Assembly (NCBI GenBank): GCA_900319525.1
Contig: ONOU01000004.1
Span: 1-64,000, forward strand
Direction: 5' to 3'
Origin: an uncultured Prevotellaceae bacterium
GTDB taxonomy: Bacteria > Bacteroidota > Bacteroidia > Bacteroidales > Muribaculaceae
DNA: 64,000 nt
The translations under genes and the position numbers were made by a program. The notes under the pieces are model-generated. The model was not told where the DNA came from. It worked only from the letters and a program-made list of their open reading frames with translations, and ran no database searches. This document shows positions 27,514 to 36,418 of the stretch, in pieces. Each line of letters opens with the position of its first letter. Positions within the stretch are counted from its first letter, which is position 1.

Positions 27514-28911
27514 TTACTTGTACAGGACGTAAGCCGTCATCGGGGCCAGCGTGGCCTTGAGAACGCCTTTCTTCACCGTGAAGCGCTGCTTGGTCACGGC
27601 GTCGCGGTATTTGCCGTTGCTCAGGGTCACGGGGATGGCCACCTGGGCAGGCTGCTCGTCGAGGTTGATGACCACGGCGGCTCTGGCGCCGCGCTCCACG
27701 ATGATCTGCTTGCCGTTCTCGCTATAGATGATGTTCTCGGGCTGACCCACGTTGCGGTGGCGGAACTCGTTGACGGCCTTCACCACGGGGTGCTTGAACT
27801 CGTCGTTGCCCACCTTGCCGATCTCGTTGTCGCCCCAATAGTTCTCGCGGGTGCTGCCGTGAGGGCGGCTGTAGAACAGCGGCGTGCCGTACTGGCGTGC
27901 GGTCAGGAAGACCCAACCCAGGCGGATGAGCTCGTCACTCATGCCGGCCGAGGCGTGGTCGTTGCAGTAGGTGTCGTGCGACTCGACCCAGGTCACCAGG
28001 TGGGCGGGATCCACCGAGTGGTGCCACGTCAACAGGTTGTCGGCACGGGCATCATGCTTATTGAGCACGTTGCGCAGCACCCAACCATAGTTGCTGGCCG
28101 TCAAGTCCATATACTCGGCATAGCCCTGCTCGGGCACATTGCGGTCCTGCAACACCTCGCCGTAGATAAAGAGTTGCTCACGCGGCACGGCCAGACGCAG
28201 GCCCTTCACGGCCTTGCGACCCATAGCCACGTCCCAGAAGTCATTCTCGGGCGACTTGGGGTCACGCATCTCGCCAGGCAGGCCGATGTGCTTGGCCGTG
28301 TCATAGCGGAAACCGCTAGCGCCACAAGCCAGCACGTCGTTGACATACTGCATGTAGTAGTACTGGAAATCAGGGTTCTCGGTGTTCACGTCGGGCAGCG
28401 TGCCCATCTCGCCCGTCGTGCACTGGTAGCGGTCGCTATAGTCCTTGATGGGCCACAGGCCGTTGGCATGGAACAGGTTCTCGCGGCCATTCACGGCGCT
28501 GTCGAGGCGGGCGTTGATCTGCGTGCGGTCAATCACCGTGTGGTTAGGCAACACATCCACGATCACGCGCAGGCCCAGGCGCTTGGCCTCGGCACACATC
28601 GCCTTGAACTCGTCACGCGTCCCCAGCTGATAGTTACCGATGGTCCAATCCGTCGGCTGGTAGTGGTAATACCACTTGCCGTGCCCGAACAGCTGGCGGC
28701 CGCCGCCCTCGCCCACGACACACTCGTTGATGGGCGACGTCTGCACAATCGTGTAACCCGCATCCTTAATCTCCGTCAGATGCTCCTTGATGGTATTAAA
28801 CGACCACGACCACGCGTGGAGAATAATCTCATTATTACCCTCAGCAGTCTGTGCCATGCCAGCCATCACACCCATAAGAGCAATCAATACGATAGAAATA
28901 AACTTTTTCAT
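27514..28911 (-). CDS. Secreted alpha-amylase, GH13
   Basis: A 465-residue enzyme with an N-terminal signal peptide (about 1-20, ending GMAQ) and the GH13 catalytic barrel: DVLPNHTV (region I), GFRYDTAKHI with nucleophile D204, IYGEVLQ with acid/base E252, and VESHDTY with D313. It is compact, with one C-terminal beta domain, and lacks a lipobox, so it is probably periplasmic or secreted. It cleaves alpha-1,4-glucans. The frame is open to 28935, but the ATG at 28911 (MKKFISIV) gives the proper signal peptide; a -7 element TATCTTTG lies at 28945-28938, just upstream. Confidence 0.88.
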   Translation of the reverse strand: MKKFISIVLIALMGVMAGMAQTAEGNNEIILHAWSWSFNTIKEHLTEIKDAGYTIVQTSPINECVVGEGGGRQLFGHGKWYYHYQPTDWTIGNYQLGTRDEFKAMCAEAKRLGLRVIVDVLPNHTVIDRTQINARLDSAVNGRENLFHANGLWPIKDYSDRYQCTTGEMGTLPDVNTENPDFQYYYMQYVNDVLACGASGFRYDTAKHIGLPGEMRDPKSPENDFWDVAMGRKAVKGLRLAVPREQLFIYGEVLQDRNVPEQGYAEYMDLTASNYGWVLRNVLNKHDARADNLLTWHHSVDPAHLVTWVESHDTYCNDHASAGMSDELIRLGWVFLTARQYGTPLFYSRPHGSTRENYWGDNEIGKVGNDEFKHPVVKAVNEFRHRNVGQPENIIYSENGKQIIVERGARAAVVINLDEQPAQVAIPVTLSNGKYRDAVTKQRFTVKKGVLKATLAPMTAYVLYK

Positions 28912-28935
28912 ATACACTAAAATCTTGTTTAACAT

Positions 28936-29711
28936 CGCAAAGATAGTAATCTTTTTAGTTTTTAGTTGTAAGTTTTCAGTTTTTAGTTGGCATCCGCACC
29001 CTTGGGGCTCACGCTAAGCGCCCCAAAAAGGAAAGACAATAAACACAACAAATACTAAGGGCATCTACACCCTTTTCTGTTGGCGCACCTTTAAAACTTA
29101 GCGAATTCGCGGCTTAGCGTGAGGGCATTAAATTTTGAAAACAAGAAAAACAAGAAACACAATCTTCTTGTTTCAAACAACAGGAACAACTCTTTTTAAA
29201 AAGCAACTGACTAATCATAATATCTTTGATAGCAGACACAAAGCCTAAACCTAACACCTATTTTTTACGTTTTCTAGATTTTCCACGTTTTCCACTATTA
29301 TATATATAATATGGAAAATATGTAAAATATAGAAAATATAGAATTTATGTCATCGCAAGTTTTGACAGGACATAAATTCATATATTTATATCATTACTCA
29401 ATTTTCACAAATTCTACATTTTCCACGTTTTCTACGTGCACACACTGCCAAAAACGAAAACAACAAACATCCCTATTTTCAAACAACAAGATTTCAAGAA
29501 AAGGAAAACAACAAACACAACAAATACAATAATTTAAATCAAACGCAAATTACGCTGATTTTCACAGATGATTATTTAATCAAATCTATAAAAATCGGCG
29601 TAATTCATGTTTTGCTAACAGTTACGCACGCACAAACAAAACACGCACGTATGGAAAACGTAGAAAACATGGAAGAATAAAAAACGAAACAGAAAATAAA
29701 AATCAAAATCC
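28936..29711. other. AT-rich intergenic region with several inverted repeats
   Basis: No credible gene. Contents: a TTTTTAGTTG-type repeat tract (28950-28990); an 11-bp inverted repeat CTCACGCTAAG (29008-29018 with 29113-29123) enclosing about 95 bases; an imperfect 35-bp inverted repeat with an AT-only centre (29268-29302 with 29305-29339); a direct-repeated CATTTTCCACGTTTTCTA motif (29270s and 29410s); and an imperfect palindrome ACGCTGATTTT...AAAATCGGCGT (29555-29605). The last type is a dispersed Bacteroidetes repeat. A-rich runs of AACAAGAAACAC type fill the rest. Confidence 0.6.
29268..29339. repeat. Imperfect 35-bp inverted repeat
   Basis: Arms 29268-29302 and 29305-29339 with a 2-base centre; the left arm carries TTTTCTAGATTTTCCACG and the right arm its near-complement. 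It could form a cruciform. Confidence 0.6.
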
Positions 29712-29742
29712 TTGCGCAATTCTTCAGAAACCACTATTTTTG
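29712..29742 (+). promoter_or_regulatory. Promoter of the candidate structured RNA / RM transcript
   Basis: TTGC (29712-29715) and TATTTTTG (29735-29742) with a 20-base gap between TTG and TA. Transcription would start near 29749-29751, at the 5' arm of the first hairpin (29751). Confidence 0.65.
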
Positions 29743-29748
29743 CACCAA

Positions 29749-30072
29749 CTCATTGACGGATCCAGTCGCATCGGCGACCACTACAACCAACCGTCAATGA
29801 AGACATATTAGATACAGGCGTTTACTGTAACGCTTTGGTTTTGACGTTTCAAGAATCTCGCAAATTCTAAAGAACAATCCGTCGAAGACAAAGCAACGTG
29901 AACGCTCCAATAGGTGTATTATATCCCTCACTCAGGTCAACACATTTGGCTTGAGAGTTTTGATATACACATCTTCGTGGAGCTTTCGACGTTGCTCACT
30001 CCTGACGGATTAGGCAATGCGAGAGCCTTTGAAACGTGGAACTGAGCAACAGACTTGGCTCCACGTTTTGTA
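29749..30072 (+). ncRNA. Candidate structured RNA (6S-like rod or leader of the RM gene)
   Basis: About 320 nt with many perfect complementary segments. Element 1: CATTGACGG (29751-29759) with CCGTCAATG (29791-29799), enclosing GTCGC/GCGAC (29765-29769, 29774-29778). Element 2: GCGTT/AACGC hairpin at 29818-29833. Element 3: a fully nested rod in which 29845-29852 pairs with 30029-30036, 29856-29862 with 30018-30024, 29876-29883 with 30004-30011, 29892-29899 with 29989-29996, 29904-29908 with 29979-29983, and 29912-29925 with 29962-29974. Element 4: AAACGTGGA (30032-30040) with TCCACGTTT (30060-30068) then TGTATTT, a terminator that overlaps and could compete with the rod's closing stem. A promoter fits exactly upstream. 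A rod with asymmetric internal loops is the shape of 6S RNA; a regulatory leader of the adjacent RM gene is the alternative. Confidence 0.6.
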
Positions 30073-30075
30073 TTT
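30032..30075 (+). terminator. Terminator of the candidate structured RNA
   Basis: Perfect 9-bp stem (30032-30040 with 30060-30068) followed by a U-rich stretch interrupted by G and A. It lies 90 bases before the RM start codon, so read-through or antitermination would be needed for joint transcription. Confidence 0.5.
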
Positions 30076-30160
30076 AATTGGCATTAACCTCTAATTATCA
30101 CACCCCTGGTTGCCGAGAGCCACAACCAAACAAATAATCGTGGCAATTATTTTTTAAATT

Positions 30161-32533
30161 ATGAATAAGTCTAAATACTCTATCAAGGAACCTCTTGAAG
30201 CATATACCAGATCTATAATTGAAGAGCGTTTGCGCTCTCTTGGATATAATATGGATGAAACAGATATCAACTGCAATATTTATAGAGAGCGTGCTAAATA
30301 TAAATTCCAAGATGATGCTTTAAATGGGAAAAACCCTGATTTTTTAGTTTATAAAGAGAACTCAACCCTTATACTTGCTGTTATTGAGGCAAAGAGGCCG
30401 GGTATTTCACTTGATACCGCAATTGATCAAGCAATTAAACTATATGCTAGTCCATTAGATATTCCCATTGTCTTTGTGTATAATGCCGGTTCTTTTTACG
30501 CTTGCACAAAGGACAGGAATTCTATTAAAATTGATGGAATTGAAATCAGTGATTTTGTCGATGAGGACACATTGCTAAAACTAATAGAAGGTGATTTTAA
30601 CATTGAAAGTGTTCCGTCTGGGTTTTCATTATCTCGTGCTGACTTGCTAACTAAATTCAAGAAAGCAAATGATTTATTGAGAAAGGCTGGTTTAAGAGAA
30701 GGATATGAGCGTTTTTCTGTATTCTCTGATTTAATGTTTTTAAAGCTGAAAAATGACTTTGGTGATATTGGTGAATTATCAGGAACCGATGGTCTGGATA
30801 AATCTTGTACTTGGAAAAAACTAATAGACAAAATACCATCTGATGACGAAGCTAATTTTGATATTGAAGATTCAGAGGTGAAATCTTATCTAGAGGATAC
30901 AATAAAGAAAAAATTGAAAGAGGCTTATGGAGATGTTTTTGAGTCATCATTAAATATTCAAGATGAGATAATATTGATAGATCTCATAAAATTAATTGAC
31001 AGTATACCATTAAAAGACGTTGATACAGATGTAAAAGGTGATGCTTTTGAGTATTTTCTCCGTAATGTCACAAATGGAAATAAAGATTTAGGAGAATACT
31101 ACACACCACGTCATATTGTTAAAATGATAGTTAAACTCTTAAATCCAATATATGGAGAGAAGATTTATGATCCCTGTTGTGGTACAGGTGGGTTTCTGCT
31201 AGAGTGTTTTAAACATTTAAGAAATAATACCGATGTAACAGAAAGCAAATCTGATTCCAATGATGTGAAAGAGGAAAAGAAAGAGAAACGCAGGATTATA
31301 AGAGAAGAAAGTGTTTATGGTCGAGAAATAACATCAACTGCTAGAATTGCTAAAATGAATATGATTCTATTTGGCGATGGCCATACTCATATCCGTCAAA
31401 TGGATTCTCTTTCAGAAGTCGTTAAAGAGGAATTTAATATTGTAGTTTCGAATATCCCATATTCTCAAAAAGTAGAAAATGGCGCTTTTTATGAATTCCC
31501 AACCGAAAAGGGTGACAGTTTGTTCATGCAACACATTTGGAAAGCTGTAAAAAAAGGAGGTCGAATAGCTGTTGTCGTACCAGATACTTTTTTATATGGT
31601 AAAGACACTTTTGATATAAGGAAGAAAATTATTGATGAGAGTTTAAGAATAATAATTGTTTCACTACCTAGGGGCGTCTTTAATCCTTACACACCAACAA
31701 AGACAAGCATATTATTTGCTTATAAAAAACAAAATCTAAGTCAATCAAGTAAACAAACTGATATTTCAATGTATATCATAAGAAACGATGGTTTTGAATT
31801 AGGAGCAAGAAGGCGTCCACTAAGAGGGCAGTCTGATTGTAATAAGTTCTTAAGGGATTATGATTTCGATAAAAATCTACGTATTGTTGAGGCTCCTAAC
31901 TCAATAAATGTTTCTTACGATGATATTCTAAAGAAAAAATATAATTTGTTCCCGTTCGAATACATGGAACATCTACCAAGTGTTGATAATTTAGAATCTC
32001 TAAAATCGATTGGTAGTTATATTGAAGAACGTAAAGAAAGATTTGATATTAACATTTTTGATGATATCTTAGAAGAGTGTGTTATTTTATCCGTTACCAA
32101 AAATGGCATTTATATTGGCGACGAATTAAGCGCCAAAGATATTAATGATCTTAAGCAGAAATATAAAAGAGTCTATGCTGGAGATTTTACTTATAACCCG
32201 CATCGTATTAATGTCGGAAGCGTTGGCGTAGTTCCTCAACTTTCTAAGTATATGTACGTTTCAGATATCTATCCTGTCTTCAAGATTAAGGATACTAATA
32301 CTATTCCAAACTATTATCTACAACGCTTGCTCAAAACAAACGAGTATAAAGTAATTATAAACGACTATTGTCAAGGTGGTGCAAGAGCAGATTTAAAATT
32401 AAAATGGTTATCACGCATAAAACTGGAATTACCATCAGAAGATGAGATTAAGAGAGTTTCTAATTTGTCACAAAAGATGGAAAAAGTATATAATCTCTAT
32501 AGAAAACTATTGAAAGAACTCATGGAGGAATAG
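30161..32533 (+). CDS. Single-chain restriction-modification enzyme (nuclease + N6-adenine methylase + specificity domain)
   Basis: A 790-residue protein. Residues about 10-135 form a type I HsdR-N-like nuclease: D60 (NPDFLVYKE), E76-A-K78 (IEAKRPG) and the QxxxY motif Q90-Y95 (DQAIKLYA), i.e. a PD-(D/E)xK core. Residues about 285-560 are an HsdM-type methylase: GEYYTPRHIVKMIVKL, SAM motif DPCCGTGGF, and motif IV SNIPYS (instead of the usual NPPY/F). Residues about 640-790 resemble one target-recognition half of HsdS (DFTYNPHRINVGSVGVVP, then a C-terminal coiled helix). There is no helicase domain and no separate hsdS/hsdR, so it is best viewed as a type IIG-like enzyme built from type I parts. 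Much richer in A+T than the neighbours, hence probably acquired. Confidence 0.85.
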   Translation: MNKSKYSIKEPLEAYTRSIIEERLRSLGYNMDETDINCNIYRERAKYKFQDDALNGKNPDFLVYKENSTLILAVIEAKRPGISLDTAIDQAIKLYASPLDIPIVFVYNAGSFYACTKDRNSIKIDGIEISDFVDEDTLLKLIEGDFNIESVPSGFSLSRADLLTKFKKANDLLRKAGLREGYERFSVFSDLMFLKLKNDFGDIGELSGTDGLDKSCTWKKLIDKIPSDDEANFDIEDSEVKSYLEDTIKKKLKEAYGDVFESSLNIQDEIILIDLIKLIDSIPLKDVDTDVKGDAFEYFLRNVTNGNKDLGEYYTPRHIVKMIVKLLNPIYGEKIYDPCCGTGGFLLECFKHLRNNTDVTESKSDSNDVKEEKKEKRRIIREESVYGREITSTARIAKMNMILFGDGHTHIRQMDSLSEVVKEEFNIVVSNIPYSQKVENGAFYEFPTEKGDSLFMQHIWKAVKKGGRIAVVVPDTFLYGKDTFDIRKKIIDESLRIIIVSLPRGVFNPYTPTKTSILFAYKKQNLSQSSKQTDISMYIIRNDGFELGARRRPLRGQSDCNKFLRDYDFDKNLRIVEAPNSINVSYDDILKKKYNLFPFEYMEHLPSVDNLESLKSIGSYIEERKERFDINIFDDILEECVILSVTKNGIYIGDELSAKDINDLKQKYKRVYAGDFTYNPHRINVGSVGVVPQLSKYMYVSDIYPVFKIKDTNTIPNYYLQRLLKTNEYKVIINDYCQGGARADLKLKWLSRIKLELPSEDEIKRVSNLSQKMEKVYNLYRKLLKELMEE

Positions 32534-32588
32534 AGGGGTCAACGATTAAACCAACGTAATGAAATAGAGGTGTGCTGGTCAGAAATAG

Positions 32589-32612
32589 CCATTAATGATA
32601 AATCATTGATGG
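32589..32612. repeat. Short hairpin 3' of the RM gene
   Basis: CCATTAATGAT and ATCATTGATGG (one mismatch) around AA. No T-run follows. It is followed (32637-32690) by ATTCATGTTACGC and GGAAAACGTGGAAAATG, which resemble 29605-29670 on the left side of the RM island. Confidence 0.45.
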
Positions 32613-32711
32613 TTAATTCGTGATCATTCGTGGGCATTCATGTTACGCGTGTGCGTGGAAAACGTGGAAAATGTAAAATAGGTTTTAGTGAGGCATACGC
32701 AGGCCTTCTAT

Positions 32712-32784
32712 CAACTGATTAGTCTGAATTCTCTGATGGCTGACGCAAAACCTCAGAAATGTTCAGATTAATCAGTTGTTTTTT
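32712..32784 (+). terminator. Terminator of the RM transcript
   Basis: Arms 32712-32729 (CAACTGATTAGTCTGAAT) and 32761-32778 pair with two mismatches; six T follow immediately. The loop is about 31 bases. Confidence 0.6.
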
Positions 32785-32871
32785 AAAGACCGCTGACGGA
32801 TGTCACAATAAAAAGTTGTCAAGGTTGTTTATTTGTGGTTCCTGTTGTTTGAGAAAATTCGTGGGCTGATG

Positions 32872-32903
32872 TTTGGGGGAATGATTTGAAATTCTTAAAT
32901 TTG
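32872..32903 (+). promoter_or_regulatory. Promoter in front of the pepD 5' fragment
   Basis: TTTG (32872-32875), 20-base spacer, TAAATTTG (32896-32903). It differs from the promoter of the intact pepD (34863-34894). Confidence 0.6.
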
Positions 32904-32927
32904 CGAAAAGGAACATTTTTATAATTT

Positions 32928-33081
32928 ATAACCTGTAATAAGACATTAACAAGAGACAATGAACGAAATTGAAAAATTGCAACCCACGTGCATCTGGCGC
33001 AGCTTCTATGCGCTGACACAGGTTCCCCATCCCATCAAGTCCATCCCGTCCATTACAGCGAGAAGCCGGATGCCCCTCTAA
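32928..33081 (+). pseudogene. Duplicated 5' end of pepD (truncated)
   Basis: 32928-33033 repeats the pepD leader and first 23 codons (34921-35028) with few differences: ATAACCTGTAATAAGACATT leader, then MNEIEKLQPTCIW and ALTQVP. One substitution gives RSFY for RNFY. The leader of this copy lacks about nine bases. After the Pro-23 region homology ends and an unrelated tail leads to a stop at 33079-33081; the ORF has 40 codons. The remainder of pepD is absent here. Confidence 0.85.
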
Positions 33082-33105
33082 GCTCTAACCCGCGAGCAAC
33101 GCTCG
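33066..33105. repeat. Heptamer/hairpin remnant
   Basis: CTCTAAGCTCTAACC followed by the hairpin GCGAGCAACGCTCGC; same two elements as the other heptamer arrays, here in the opposite orientation to the upstream ORF. Confidence 0.5.
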
Positions 33106-33123
33106 CAATTCTGCTTTTTGTCA

Positions 33124-33155
33124 TTGACCTCGGGTGATGGGGTGTGATACCTTTG
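33124..33155 (+). promoter_or_regulatory. Possible promoter
   Basis: ATTG (33123-33126), 21-base gap, TACCTTTG (33148-33155). The 250 bases downstream contain no gene that I can identify; they could be an extra leader for the protease gene or a small RNA. Confidence 0.4.
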
Positions 33156-33375
33156 CAATGAGGGGGGCGAGGATCGCTTTTAACCTTTCGTTAACATTTC
33201 CGCCCCACACTATCATTGATTTCTCATTTGGACAGACTGTTGTTAATCAGGCAGTTGCTCAACGGGCTATTCAAAACCTGATTCTGCTTTTTGACGGCAG
33301 CAGTCCATGACAGAGCTGCCTAGTGAAGCAGAAATAGAAAACTACTTGTCCACAAGAAAATTATTAGTATAACTA

Positions 33376-33407
33376 TTTGGAATTTCGCTCAACTTATTCT
33401 ATTTTTG
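33376..33407 (+). promoter_or_regulatory. Promoter of the C10 protease gene
   Basis: TTTG (33376-33379), 20-base spacer, TATTTTTG (33400-33407). Predicted start near 33414, giving a leader of about 97 bases. Confidence 0.65.
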
Positions 33408-33510
33408 TAGCTCTCAAATCAACAAGTGCCATCAATGTGGCTATGAATAGATGATATAGAATTTTCATGAGACCATTTACATTATACGTTATTTTAAGAT
33501 TTTAATCATT

Positions 33511-34794
33511 ATGATACTACCTAGAAGATGTTTATTGGCACTGGGGGCAGCGCTGTTGACTGCTGCCGCATGGGCCGGAATCCAGACCGACGCCCGAATG
33601 CATGCTGTGGCCAGGCGCGTCTTGGGCGCTGGTGGCCAGGTGAGCCGTGTGGCCGACTATCCTGGCATGGCCGTATATCAACAGGCCGGTGGCGGCTTTG
33701 CCATCGTTTCCAGCGACGGGAATGCGCCTGCCGTGATGGCCTACTCTCCCGATGGCCAGTTTGACCCGACGAGTGACAACCCTGGCTTCAACTGGTGGCT
33801 GAGCGCCATCAAGGGGGCTCCTCACCGCGATCCCATTAAGCCAGACCCGAGCCGGTTCGCCCCGTCGGTGGCACCGCTCATCACCACCCGGTGGGGGCAG
33901 AATGAGCCTTTCCGCTACATGTGTCCGTTTCTGGAGTATGAGCCCGACTTGAGCAAATATGGCATCTACCTGCCCGACACGACCCACAATGCCGTGGGAT
34001 GCGGGCCGGCGGCCATGGCACAGTTCATGAACTATTACAAGTTCCCCGATCATGGTCGGGGCAGCCGATCGGTTGTCGTCAAGTATGACCAGGCCAACGT
34101 GACGCTGACGGTGGATTTTGAGGCGGCGACCTACGATTGGGACAACATGCTGGACGATTACAGCGGCGGCTATACCGACGAGCAGGGCGAGGCCGTGGCA
34201 CAGCTGTGCTATCATGCCGCTGTAGCAGCCCAGGCCAATTGGACTAGGCTGGGCGGAGCCACATTTGACGACAATATCCTCAACGCCATGATTGAGCACT
34301 TCGGCTACAATGATTCGGCCCGCGTCCTCAATCGGCCATTGTATGACGACGTCACGTGGGTGGAAATGATCTATGAGTCGCTCTCTAATGGTCATCCCGT
34401 GCTCTACTCGGGCAAGGACATCAATTTTGAAGTGGGCATCCTGGTGGGACACAATTTCATCATCGACGGCTATGACGAGAATGGTCTGGTACATGTCAAC
34501 TGGGGCTGGCACGGCCAGCAAGACGGCTATTACGACATCGCCACGCTCACCGTGGGCAAGCTGTCGTTTGATGACTGGCAAGGCATGTACACGGGACTGT
34601 ATCCCAAGCGTGATCACCTGCGCGGCGACGTGGATGGCGACGGCAAGGTCAACATCACCGACGTCACCACGCTCATCGACATCCTGTTGACGGGTGATAC
34701 AAGCAATCATATGCCACAGGCTGACGTCAATAATGATGGCCGCATCACCATCGACGATGTGACAGAACTTATCGACCTACTGCTCACACATTGA
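33511..34794 (+). CDS. Secreted C10-family cysteine protease (streptopain-like) with dockerin-type C-terminus
   Basis: A 427-residue protein. Signal peptide about 1-22; propeptide-like domain to about 120 with a GGGFAIVSSDG motif of Spi-type inhibitors; mature peptidase about 120-365, with nucleophile C164 in AVGCGPAAMAQ, general base H314 in VGHNFIIDGYD, and the following VNWGWHG motif. The last 55 residues hold two Ca-binding dockerin/EF-hand-like loops (GDVDGDGKVNITDV and ADVNNDGRITIDDV). Family members are streptopain, interpain A and the B. fragilis Bfp proteases. The C-terminal repeats are common in Bacteroidales secreted proteins and probably act in structure or sorting; a cellulosome role is unlikely. 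It lies between the truncated and intact pepD. Confidence 0.88.
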   Translation: MILPRRCLLALGAALLTAAAWAGIQTDARMHAVARRVLGAGGQVSRVADYPGMAVYQQAGGGFAIVSSDGNAPAVMAYSPDGQFDPTSDNPGFNWWLSAIKGAPHRDPIKPDPSRFAPSVAPLITTRWGQNEPFRYMCPFLEYEPDLSKYGIYLPDTTHNAVGCGPAAMAQFMNYYKFPDHGRGSRSVVVKYDQANVTLTVDFEAATYDWDNMLDDYSGGYTDEQGEAVAQLCYHAAVAAQANWTRLGGATFDDNILNAMIEHFGYNDSARVLNRPLYDDVTWVEMIYESLSNGHPVLYSGKDINFEVGILVGHNFIIDGYDENGLVHVNWGWHGQQDGYYDIATLTVGKLSFDDWQGMYTGLYPKRDHLRGDVDGDGKVNITDVTTLIDILLTGDTSNHMPQADVNNDGRITIDDVTELIDLLLTH

Positions 34795-34840
34795 GCGATA
34801 CCAGCATCGAGCGGCGAAGACAGGCGGCGTCTCGGGATTG

Positions 34841-34866
34841 CAAACAAAAAAATGATTTTTTGTTTG
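34841..34866 (+). terminator. AT-rich hairpin overlapping the pepD promoter
   Basis: CAAACAAAAAA (34841-34851) pairs perfectly with TTTTTTGTTTG (34856-34866). The last four bases are the -33 TTTG of the pepD promoter. Could terminate the protease transcript. Confidence 0.5.
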
Positions 34867-34894
34867 GCACTCCGCTAGACTTGCACTATCTTTG
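34863..34894 (+). promoter_or_regulatory. pepD promoter
   Basis: TTTG (34863-34866), 20-base spacer, TATCTTTG (34887-34894). Start near 34901, leader about 57 bases. Confidence 0.75.
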
Positions 34895-34957
34895 CCACAT
34901 AGAAAAAAGACATCAATTTTATAACCTGTAATAAGACATTAACAGAGAATCAAGACT

Positions 34958-36418
34958 ATGAACGAAATTGAAAAATTGCAACCCACGTGCATCTGGCGCA
35001 ACTTCTATGCGCTGACACAGGTTCCCCGTCCCTCGGGACACGTTGAGAAAATCCAGCAATTCCTGCTCGACTTTGCCAAGAAGGTGGGCGTTGAGGCCTT
35101 CCAGGACCCCGCCGGCAACATCGTGATGCGCAAGCCTGCCACCCCCGGCATGGAAAACCGCAAGTGCATCACCATGCAGGCCCACATGGACATGGTGCCC
35201 CAAAAGACGCCCGAGTCCAAGCACAACTTCGAGACCGATCCCATCGAGCCCTACATCGACGGCGAGTGGATCAAGGCACGCGGCACCACGCTGGGTGCTG
35301 ACGACGGTCTGGGCGTGGCAGCCATCATGGCAGTCATGGAGGACAACACCCTCAAGCACGGTCCCATCGAGGGCCTGATCACCAAGGACGAGGAGACCGG
35401 CATGTATGGCGCCAACGATCTGCCCAAGGGACAGATGAAGGGCGACATCCTGTTCAACCTCGACAGCGAGACGTGGGGCAAGTTCGTCATCGGTAGCGCC
35501 GGTGGTATCGACGTTACCTGCACGCGCAAATACAATGAGGTAAAGACCGCCAGCGGCGACACCGCCGTGCGCATCACCCTCAAGGGCCTGAAGGGCGGCC
35601 ACAGCGGCCTCGAGATCCATGAGGGCCGTGCCAACGCCAACAAGCTGATGGCCCGCCTCGTGCAACTGGCTATCGTTGACCACAAGGCCCGCCTGGTGAG
35701 CTGGCATGGCGGCAACATGCGCAACGCCATCCCCTTCAAGGCCGAGACCGTCATGGTGCTGCCCGAGGATAACCTCAAGGGCATGAAGAAGCTCGTCAAG
35801 ACGATGAAGGCCCAGTTCGAGAGCGAGTTCAAGTTCATCGAGGACAACGTGGACCTGACCTTGAAGGCTATCGACCGTCCCAAGATGAAGATGGCCCTCG
35901 ACGACCAGACGACCATCCTGCGCGCCCTGTACGCCTGCCATGACGGCGTCGTTCGTTTCATCCCCGCCTATCCCAACGTGGTAGAGACCTCCAGCAACCT
36001 GGCCATCATCGACATCGAGGACGGCAAGGCAGCCGTGAAGATCCTCGCCCGCTCGGCACGTGAGGACATGAAGGAGTACATCGTGAAGATGCTCATGACC
36101 TGCTTCCACCTCGCCGACTTCAAGGTAGAGACCGGTGGCGACTACATCGGCTGGGATCCCAACCCCGACAGCGAGGCCCTGCACATGCTGCTTGACCTGT
36201 ACAAGCAACTCTTCAACGAGGAGGGCATCGTGCAAGTTGACCACGCCGGTCTGGAGTGCTCCATCATCCTGGGCAAGTACCCGCACATGGACGTAGTGAG
36301 CTTCGGTCCCACGCTGCGCAGCCCGCACACCACTATCGAGCGCGCCTACATCCCCGCAGCAGAACCCTTCTGGAAACTGCTCGTTAAGGCTCTCGAGGAG
36401 GCTCCCGTCAAGAAATAA
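34958..36418 (+). CDS. pepD: Aminoacyl-histidine dipeptidase (M20C)
   Basis: A 486-residue cytoplasmic metallopeptidase. Metal-binding motifs: HMDMVPQ (about residue 80), ADDGLGVAA (about 119), TKDEETGMYGA (about 149, catalytic/base Glu pair), and a C-terminal H in VDHAGLECSII. The internal dimerisation/lid domain (about 190-380) contains GGHSGLEIHEGRANANK. It hydrolyses dipeptides such as Xaa-His with two zinc ions. Length and motifs are standard. It starts behind its own promoter and ends at a good terminator. A truncated copy of its 5' end lies about 2 kb upstream. Confidence 0.93.
   Translation: MNEIEKLQPTCIWRNFYALTQVPRPSGHVEKIQQFLLDFAKKVGVEAFQDPAGNIVMRKPATPGMENRKCITMQAHMDMVPQKTPESKHNFETDPIEPYIDGEWIKARGTTLGADDGLGVAAIMAVMEDNTLKHGPIEGLITKDEETGMYGANDLPKGQMKGDILFNLDSETWGKFVIGSAGGIDVTCTRKYNEVKTASGDTAVRITLKGLKGGHSGLEIHEGRANANKLMARLVQLAIVDHKARLVSWHGGNMRNAIPFKAETVMVLPEDNLKGMKKLVKTMKAQFESEFKFIEDNVDLTLKAIDRPKMKMALDDQTTILRALYACHDGVVRFIPAYPNVVETSSNLAIIDIEDGKAAVKILARSAREDMKEYIVKMLMTCFHLADFKVETGGDYIGWDPNPDSEALHMLLDLYKQLFNEEGIVQVDHAGLECSIILGKYPHMDVVSFGPTLRSPHTTIERAYIPAAEPFWKLLVKALEEAPVKK

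Follow-up and report, generated by a model that had tools for sequence, protein, structure and literature searches.

Large leader RNAs that have been deciphered, among them the T-box, SAM and c-di-GMP leaders, revealed major signals, and the put and epsC/EAR RNAs modify RNA polymerase so that it passes distant terminators. Large structured leaders that combine many copies per genome with strong covariation are, to our knowledge, uncommon finds. Here we describe such an RNA in the window, a 64,000-nt stretch of contig ONOU01000004.1 (positions 1 to 64,000) from an uncultured Prevotellaceae bacterium, where it lies directly ahead of a gene for a single-protein restriction-modification (RM) enzyme. 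The window RNA is a member of a large family of structured RNAs whose core spans about 260 nt, and we think it probable that it is a 5' leader acting as a transcription attenuator of the downstream gene. Like known attenuation leaders and riboswitches, the family has a promoter box, a large covarying structure in the 5' untranslated region (5' UTR), many genes carrying it and an intrinsic-terminator-like hairpin just ahead of the start codon; it differs from them in having no Rfam match or known ligand, in a post-terminator hairpin that pairs with the terminator's 3' arm, and in downstream genes, RM and conflict genes as well as genes for BspA-type surface proteins, that no evident pathway unites. 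The put and epsC/EAR antitermination RNAs are also structured RNAs near the promoter of accessory operons, whereas the window unit contains its own terminator-like hairpin. The trans-acting 6S RNA (RF00013, RF01685) resembles the window RNA in length and in its rod with internal loops, but the window family is a multi-copy leader without a covariance-model match. The FopS/GibS RNAs of Bacteroides are likewise multi-copy RNAs with a terminator; FopS is described as a trans-acting single-stranded 5' stretch followed by a terminator hairpin, in contrast to the core of about 260 nt that precedes a gene in the window family (PMC11697453).

The window copy and its gene comprise the following parts:

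29704 to 30144, plus strand: conserved unit common to the window and locus L026 (blastn of syntenic loci, 93.9% over 441 bp), stopping 16 bp short of the RM start codon
29712 to 29742, plus strand: predicted promoter, with TTG at 29712-29714 and TATTTTTG at 29735-29742, a Bacteroidetes -7 box (TAnnTTTG)
29750 to 29800, plus strand: 5' hairpin (arms 29750-29759 and 29791-29800), seen in folds and beginning at the predicted transcription start
29816 to 29835, plus strand: small conserved hairpin GGCGTT/AACGCT (arms 29817-29822 and 29829-29834), helix 1 of alignment A3
29834 to 29840, plus strand: TTTGGTT strand, predicted antiterminator partner of 30040-30046
about 29841 to 30038, plus strand: rod of covarying helices (4-8 of A3), conserved in its internal loops and variable at its tip
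30035 to 30076, plus strand: terminator-like hairpin (CGTGGA at 30035-30040, TCCACG at 30060-30065) and T-rich tract TTTTGTATTT
30108 to 30127, plus strand: post-terminator hairpin GGTTG/CAACC, with complementarity between its loop GAGCCA (30117-30122) and TGGCTC (30056-30061) in the terminator's 3' arm
30161 to 32533, plus strand: single-protein RM enzyme with HSDR_N, N6_Mtase and a specificity-like C-terminal part (Pfam, PADLOC)

We searched for this RNA elsewhere, as the preliminary description of the locus had suggested, finding that it recurs in other genomes with covarying base changes. With the leader as query, blastn matched 16 of 61 genomes, including the one that contains the window, several at more than one place. 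From 21 of the 24 places we built a covariance model, R1, with 43 pairs, 21 of them showing compensatory double changes; L013 and L017 (partial) and L025 (part of the L016 copy) were omitted. Across the window's order, R1 matched 37 of 295 sampled genomes, a lower bound because only six candidates per genome were scored and the filters were strict; by other counts, it matched 34 of 244 good-quality genomes and 25 of 184 genera. None of 344 other genomes in a phylum-wide sample, which also contained at least two matchless genomes of the window's own order, had a match among the five candidates scored in each. A chosen set of 20 genomes, 16 picked for a known match and 4 for having no blastn match, yielded R1 matches in 19, including 12 copies in G005, all at E 8e-15 or better; the window's own genome has two copies. 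Genome G187 gave 15 matches, 10 of them weaker than E 1e-8 to 1e-10, and the short, low-scoring matches in G187 and G310 (about 165-190 nt) are possibly a compact sub-type of the RNA. A core-pattern scan of titled genome records found at least 80 loci; R1 confirmed 75 of the 80 listed. Confirmed copies among the matches listed fall in Prevotella, Bacteroides, Phocaeicola, Parabacteroides, Alistipes and Odoribacter, and the carriers listed there include Prevotella denticola, Parabacteroides distasonis, Hallella mizrahii and Xylanibacter rodentium. In this analysis the family is found almost only in Bacteroidales, likely its host order. Four confirmed copies (L163, L212, L214 and L227) lie on metagenome contigs labelled clostridial or eubacterial, which are possibly misbinned or possibly reflect transfer. 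Two IMG/VR contigs also matched the core pattern; R1 confirmed the copy on L271 (394-637) and not that on L270. The L271 contig may be bacterial, and by their translations the genes after its RNA resemble an EF-Tu-like GTPase, an actin/Hsp70-like protein and a HerA-like ATPase.

Neither the window RNA nor 10 further loci with copies had an Rfam 15 match at the gathering threshold, and a search of the window RNA at E<=5 returned two weak matches, both unrelated. The preliminary description had offered, as one of two readings, a 6S RNA that lies here by chance, prompted by a rod of about 190 nt with asymmetric internal loops. That reading fell away: a search of the window's whole genome sequence with RF00013 also gave no match, the 6S models did not recognise the window RNA, and the RNA is multi-copy and leader-placed, leaving 6S identity practically out of the question. 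FopS membership was set aside as well, since the covarying core does not fit the architecture of a seed stretch plus terminator alone, as far as the available description goes (PMC11697453). The same source states that FopS is deposited in Rfam, although the Rfam copy that we searched may lack its model. In the literature searched we recognised nothing as the leader RNA within the accessible parts of the sources (including PMC8040213, PMC10861873, PMC10994844, PMC11697453 and PMC2864571), a negative limited by the thousands of candidates in the supplements of PMC8040213, one of which could be the leader RNA, and by motifs listed without an Rfam number in PMC2864571, which also lists the epsC motif. 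The window RNA belongs to a leader family without an Rfam 15 match and with none recognised in the literature searched.

To assess the structure across the family, we aligned 101 of 123 copies (alignment A3; 100-source maximum). The 123 copies come in part from related genomes, with L068 dropped as a duplicate of L144, and the 22 omitted from A3 are L038, L074, L075, L112, L117, L133, both copies in L134, L135, L137-L140, both copies in L144, L145-L150 and L152. Standard pairs occupy 95.1% of the 4204 pair cells, compared with 77.3% after shuffling (0 of 500 shuffles as high) and 35-44% in controls with slid partners; A3 was fitted to the model structure and leans toward it. Double-sided changes occur at 31 of the 43 pairs, in 801 cells versus 222.7 shuffled. 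The small hairpin is paired in 93.9% of cells, and the rod helices in 85.0-99.4%, with double-sided changes at 26 of 30 rod pairs. The 5' hairpin stretch beats its own mononucleotide-shuffled mean fold in 96 of 97 copies. Folded by itself, the window's rod (29835-30040) reaches -81.2 kcal/mol, where shuffled versions average -47.2 (z -9.3; none of 200 did as well), and the stretch from the predicted start to the terminator (29749-30075) has a z of -9.1 against shuffles. The structure exceeds chance on evolutionary as well as folding grounds. A conserved covarying domain of this kind is as expected of a riboswitch, and the rod may be aptamer-like. Its base is conserved among copies; the tip (about 29925-29970 in the window) is highly variable in length and sequence.

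These results also bear on the individual elements first described here. The predicted promoter has its TTG and TATTTTTG at the positions given above, and the -7 box recurs ahead of copies; the claimed stems (5' hairpin, rod, terminator-like hairpin) are present as placed, with their pairing kept across the 101 homologues. The claim that the RM start codon has no separate promoter agrees with inspection by eye, which found no TAnnTTTG box between the terminator and the start codon. The rod and the terminator had also been called mutually exclusive, which holds for the window copy but does not extend to the family: across copies, the terminator stem overlaps the helix that closes the rod by just 2 alignment columns, and we rejected exclusion by the rod base as a family rule. 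Folding the window core once with the terminator's 3' arm and once without it gives energies 2 kcal/mol apart, and the minimum-energy fold of 30028-30160 keeps the terminator and does not form the small post-terminator hairpin. In this copy, the rod/terminator pair may work as a switch.

Family-wide, the placement of the RNA is that of a predicted 5' UTR element, with a promoter box upstream and a co-directional gene downstream, as in attenuators. Counting open reading frames (ORFs) of at least 100 aa, the nearest one downstream runs in the direction of the RNA in 107 of 120 copies, and the nearest one upstream in 65 of 116; the RM gene of L028, whose longest ORF overlaps the RNA, was skipped in this count and a gene farther on taken. 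Of the co-directional genes, 50 of 107 start 30-75 nt past the RNA, and the first in-frame ATG follows at a median gap of 70 nt (96 copies within 500 nt). Of 123 copies, 104 have TAnnTTTG in the 130 nt preceding the core, compared with 18 of 121 on the antisense strand, 9 of 121 farther upstream and 6 of 121 directly downstream of the RNA. The same promoter box, together with the terminator, would also suit a stand-alone, multi-copy small RNA that acts in trans and ends at the terminator, its neighbours being read mainly by leak-through or from other promoters; the 12 strong copies in one genome and the existence of multi-copy small-RNA families in Bacteroides (FopS; PMC11697453) speak for this as well. 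Such an RNA would not account for the strong co-directionality and the short spacing to so many genes, for the rarity of the box just downstream of the RNA, or for a conserved post-terminator loop (see below) that sits in the mRNA and pairs back to the terminator, and we judge it unlikely, though with a real chance of being right. A leader of the put or epsC kind that modifies RNA polymerase for processive antitermination would fit a long structured RNA directly after a promoter box and accessory genes downstream; the terminator-like hairpin at the RNA's own 3' end and the lack of any Rfam relation to described elements make this quite improbable.

At the terminator end, 94 of 123 copies have a run of at least five T residues, consistent with a predicted intrinsic terminator ahead of the start codon. 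The terminator stem, which lay outside the model structure used for alignment, is paired in 89.5% of cells versus 83.1% shuffled, with 64 double-change cells versus 27.1 and double-sided changes at five of its six pairs. For the competing state, a helix of 7 bp in which TTTGGTT would pair with the 5' arm of the terminator (register B) is paired in 88.3% of cells, with a shuffled mean of 83.3% and a maximum of 85.5% in 300 shuffles. This putative antiterminator, modestly supported, appears a better candidate than the rod base. Across the 101 copies, folds with the terminator forced and folds with its 3' arm blocked differ by a median of 0.7 kcal/mol.

An unusual part of the family is a loop past the terminator that pairs back to it. 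In many copies a second hairpin follows the terminator, with a loop that complements the 3' arm of the terminator and co-varies with it (GACTCCC with GGGAGTC in L094, GATTCCC with GGGAATC in L095, GGTTCC with GGAACC in L150). We quantified this pairing in 114 non-redundant copies, finding a mean score of 14.93, compared with 12.51 for permuted partners (maximum of 2000 permutations, 13.23); the pairing was first spotted by eye, and the test set includes the copies first inspected. It leaves out L033, L035, L037 and L038 (no terminator by pattern) and five redundant copies, and it retains roughly ten copies with a misplaced arm (such as L032, L130 and L131). The loop lies beyond the T tract and therefore cannot act until polymerase has passed it.

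Several results weigh against attenuation. The terminator is present in the minimum-energy fold of just 15 of 101 copies, and its stem shows no clear excess over shuffles by two of five measures (the count of double-change pairs was reached in 60 of 500 shuffles, the pair types in 367 of 500). Register B was picked after viewing the sequences and stands modestly above shuffles, and with the 3' arm blocked its two strands pair in 94 of 101 copies but also in 241 of 303 strand-shuffled controls. The antiterminator register proposed by RNAalifold was rejected, as it showed no gain over shuffles (89.0% versus 88.1%, maximum 89.6%). A copy's own downstream stretch ranks within the best 10% of partners for the post-terminator pairing in only 32% of copies, and the nearest downstream ORF is opposed in 13 of 120. 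In the window itself, the T tract (TTTTGTATTT) is weak and short, and a simple terminator scan did not include the hairpin at 30035-30076 among its listed terminators.

The scarcity of the terminator in minimum-energy folds would be natural for a translation-level switch, in which the post-terminator hairpin and its pairing with the 3' arm gate ribosome access with little termination. As judged by eye, the start codon often follows the loop at a distance of some 15-50 nt, and changes in the loop are matched by changes in its pairing partner. A switch of this kind would not need the T runs found at the terminator in most copies, and we consider it unlikely. We favor the attenuator, which might work as follows. 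Transcription would start at the 5' hairpin, and the rod, as a sensing domain, would decide between formation and bypass of the terminator just ahead of the gene. Without a signal the terminator hairpin would halt RNA polymerase; with it (or the reverse) the TTTGGTT strand would capture the terminator's 5' arm. Once polymerase has read through, the post-terminator loop would bind the 3' arm of the terminator and thereby keep the leader open; alternatively, the loop may act on translation.

We next compared the leaders and the genes behind them. When the 101 RNAs are placed on a midpoint-rooted tree, the seven leaders linked to RM genes (window and L026-L031) form one clade with support 0.86; L026-L031 are the six closest relatives of the window leader, and all precede DNA methyltransferase or RM genes. 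These genes encode N6-methylase/HSDR_N fusions (window, L026), N6-methylase/Eco57I-type proteins (L029, L030), a IIG enzyme (L027) and a C5 methylase (L031). By blastp, the L028 RM protein is 83% identical to that of the window over the part seen, and the other N6-type RM proteins of the clade are only 25-35% identical to the window's in partial alignments. The window shares synteny with L026, L027 and L028 toward the amylase gene as well as toward the M20-peptidase gene (87-93% DNA identity), and three different RM lineages occupy this one locus. The closest RM homologue found elsewhere (G678, another genus, 74% identical) has no R1 match in a stretch reaching 1.5 kb upstream. RM replacement in situ and this leaderless homologue therefore indicate that leader and RM gene are separate, combinable modules: the leader appears to be an exchangeable module, retained at one locus where the RM gene was replaced. 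This offers a route by which restriction systems could be replaced in place with their expression control kept. In the window/L026 comparison, blastn gave no match in the DNA flanking the 441-bp unit. Such bounds, and the many copies, might suggest a mobile or recombination hairpin element that inserts ahead of genes without regulating them; orientation bias, a promoter box and long-range covariation are not expected of one, the window copy had no match among 72,556 plasmid or 50,697 phage records, and we regard this as very improbable.

The RM link is one branch of a far larger leader family. Most of the 99 downstream proteins scanned are not RM proteins. We found LRR_5 (BspA type) in 13, N6_Mtase in 5, Dockerin in 5, Big_2 in 4, and C5 methylase, protein kinase and SNF2 in 2 each, with single proteins including vWA, DUF2971, AbiGi, dynamin, PLD-helicase and N4/N6 methylases. 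On the upstream side (112 proteins), neither LRR_5 nor the DNA methylase families rank among the 25 most frequent of the 155 families listed. Dockerin does (4 of 112), so it is not peculiar to downstream genes. N termini resembling signal peptides, by a crude rule, occur in 48 of 99 downstream and 18 of 112 upstream proteins (Fisher p 6e-7). Within a larger clade around the RM-linked leaders, delimited by eye on the tree, 4 of 24 downstream genes are signal-peptide-like, versus 44 of 75 outside it. An RNA partnered with RM genes only is rejected on the diverse downstream genes and on the 74% identical RM homologue, which has no match to the RNA in the stretch covered. The second earlier reading, a leader controlling the RM gene, keeps its leader part, for which the position and orientation of the RNA, its promoter box, its terminator and the covariation all speak, and loses the special RNA-RM partnership. 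Going further, the RNAs could form a hitherto undescribed riboswitch-like Bacteroidales class with specialised clades, one branch responding to infection or foreign DNA and freeing systems of immunity and conflict (RM, kinase, vWA, dynamin, AbiGi, helicases) and a second one freeing surface proteins, with the leader as a fixed socket for changing RM genes; we offer this only as a speculative and rather unlikely extension.

The second copy in the window's genome (L083, G000:C32:70422-70666) has as its nearest called gene, 311 nt downstream, one for a dynamin-like GTPase. In L148 and L150 the RNA precedes genes for short Cys-rich peptides with a twin-arginine-like N terminus, perhaps precursors of modified peptides. 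In the window, 27514-36418 (amylase to M20-peptidase) resembles an exchange hotspot, within which the RM and C10-peptidase/dockerin genes differ in kind and order among relatives.

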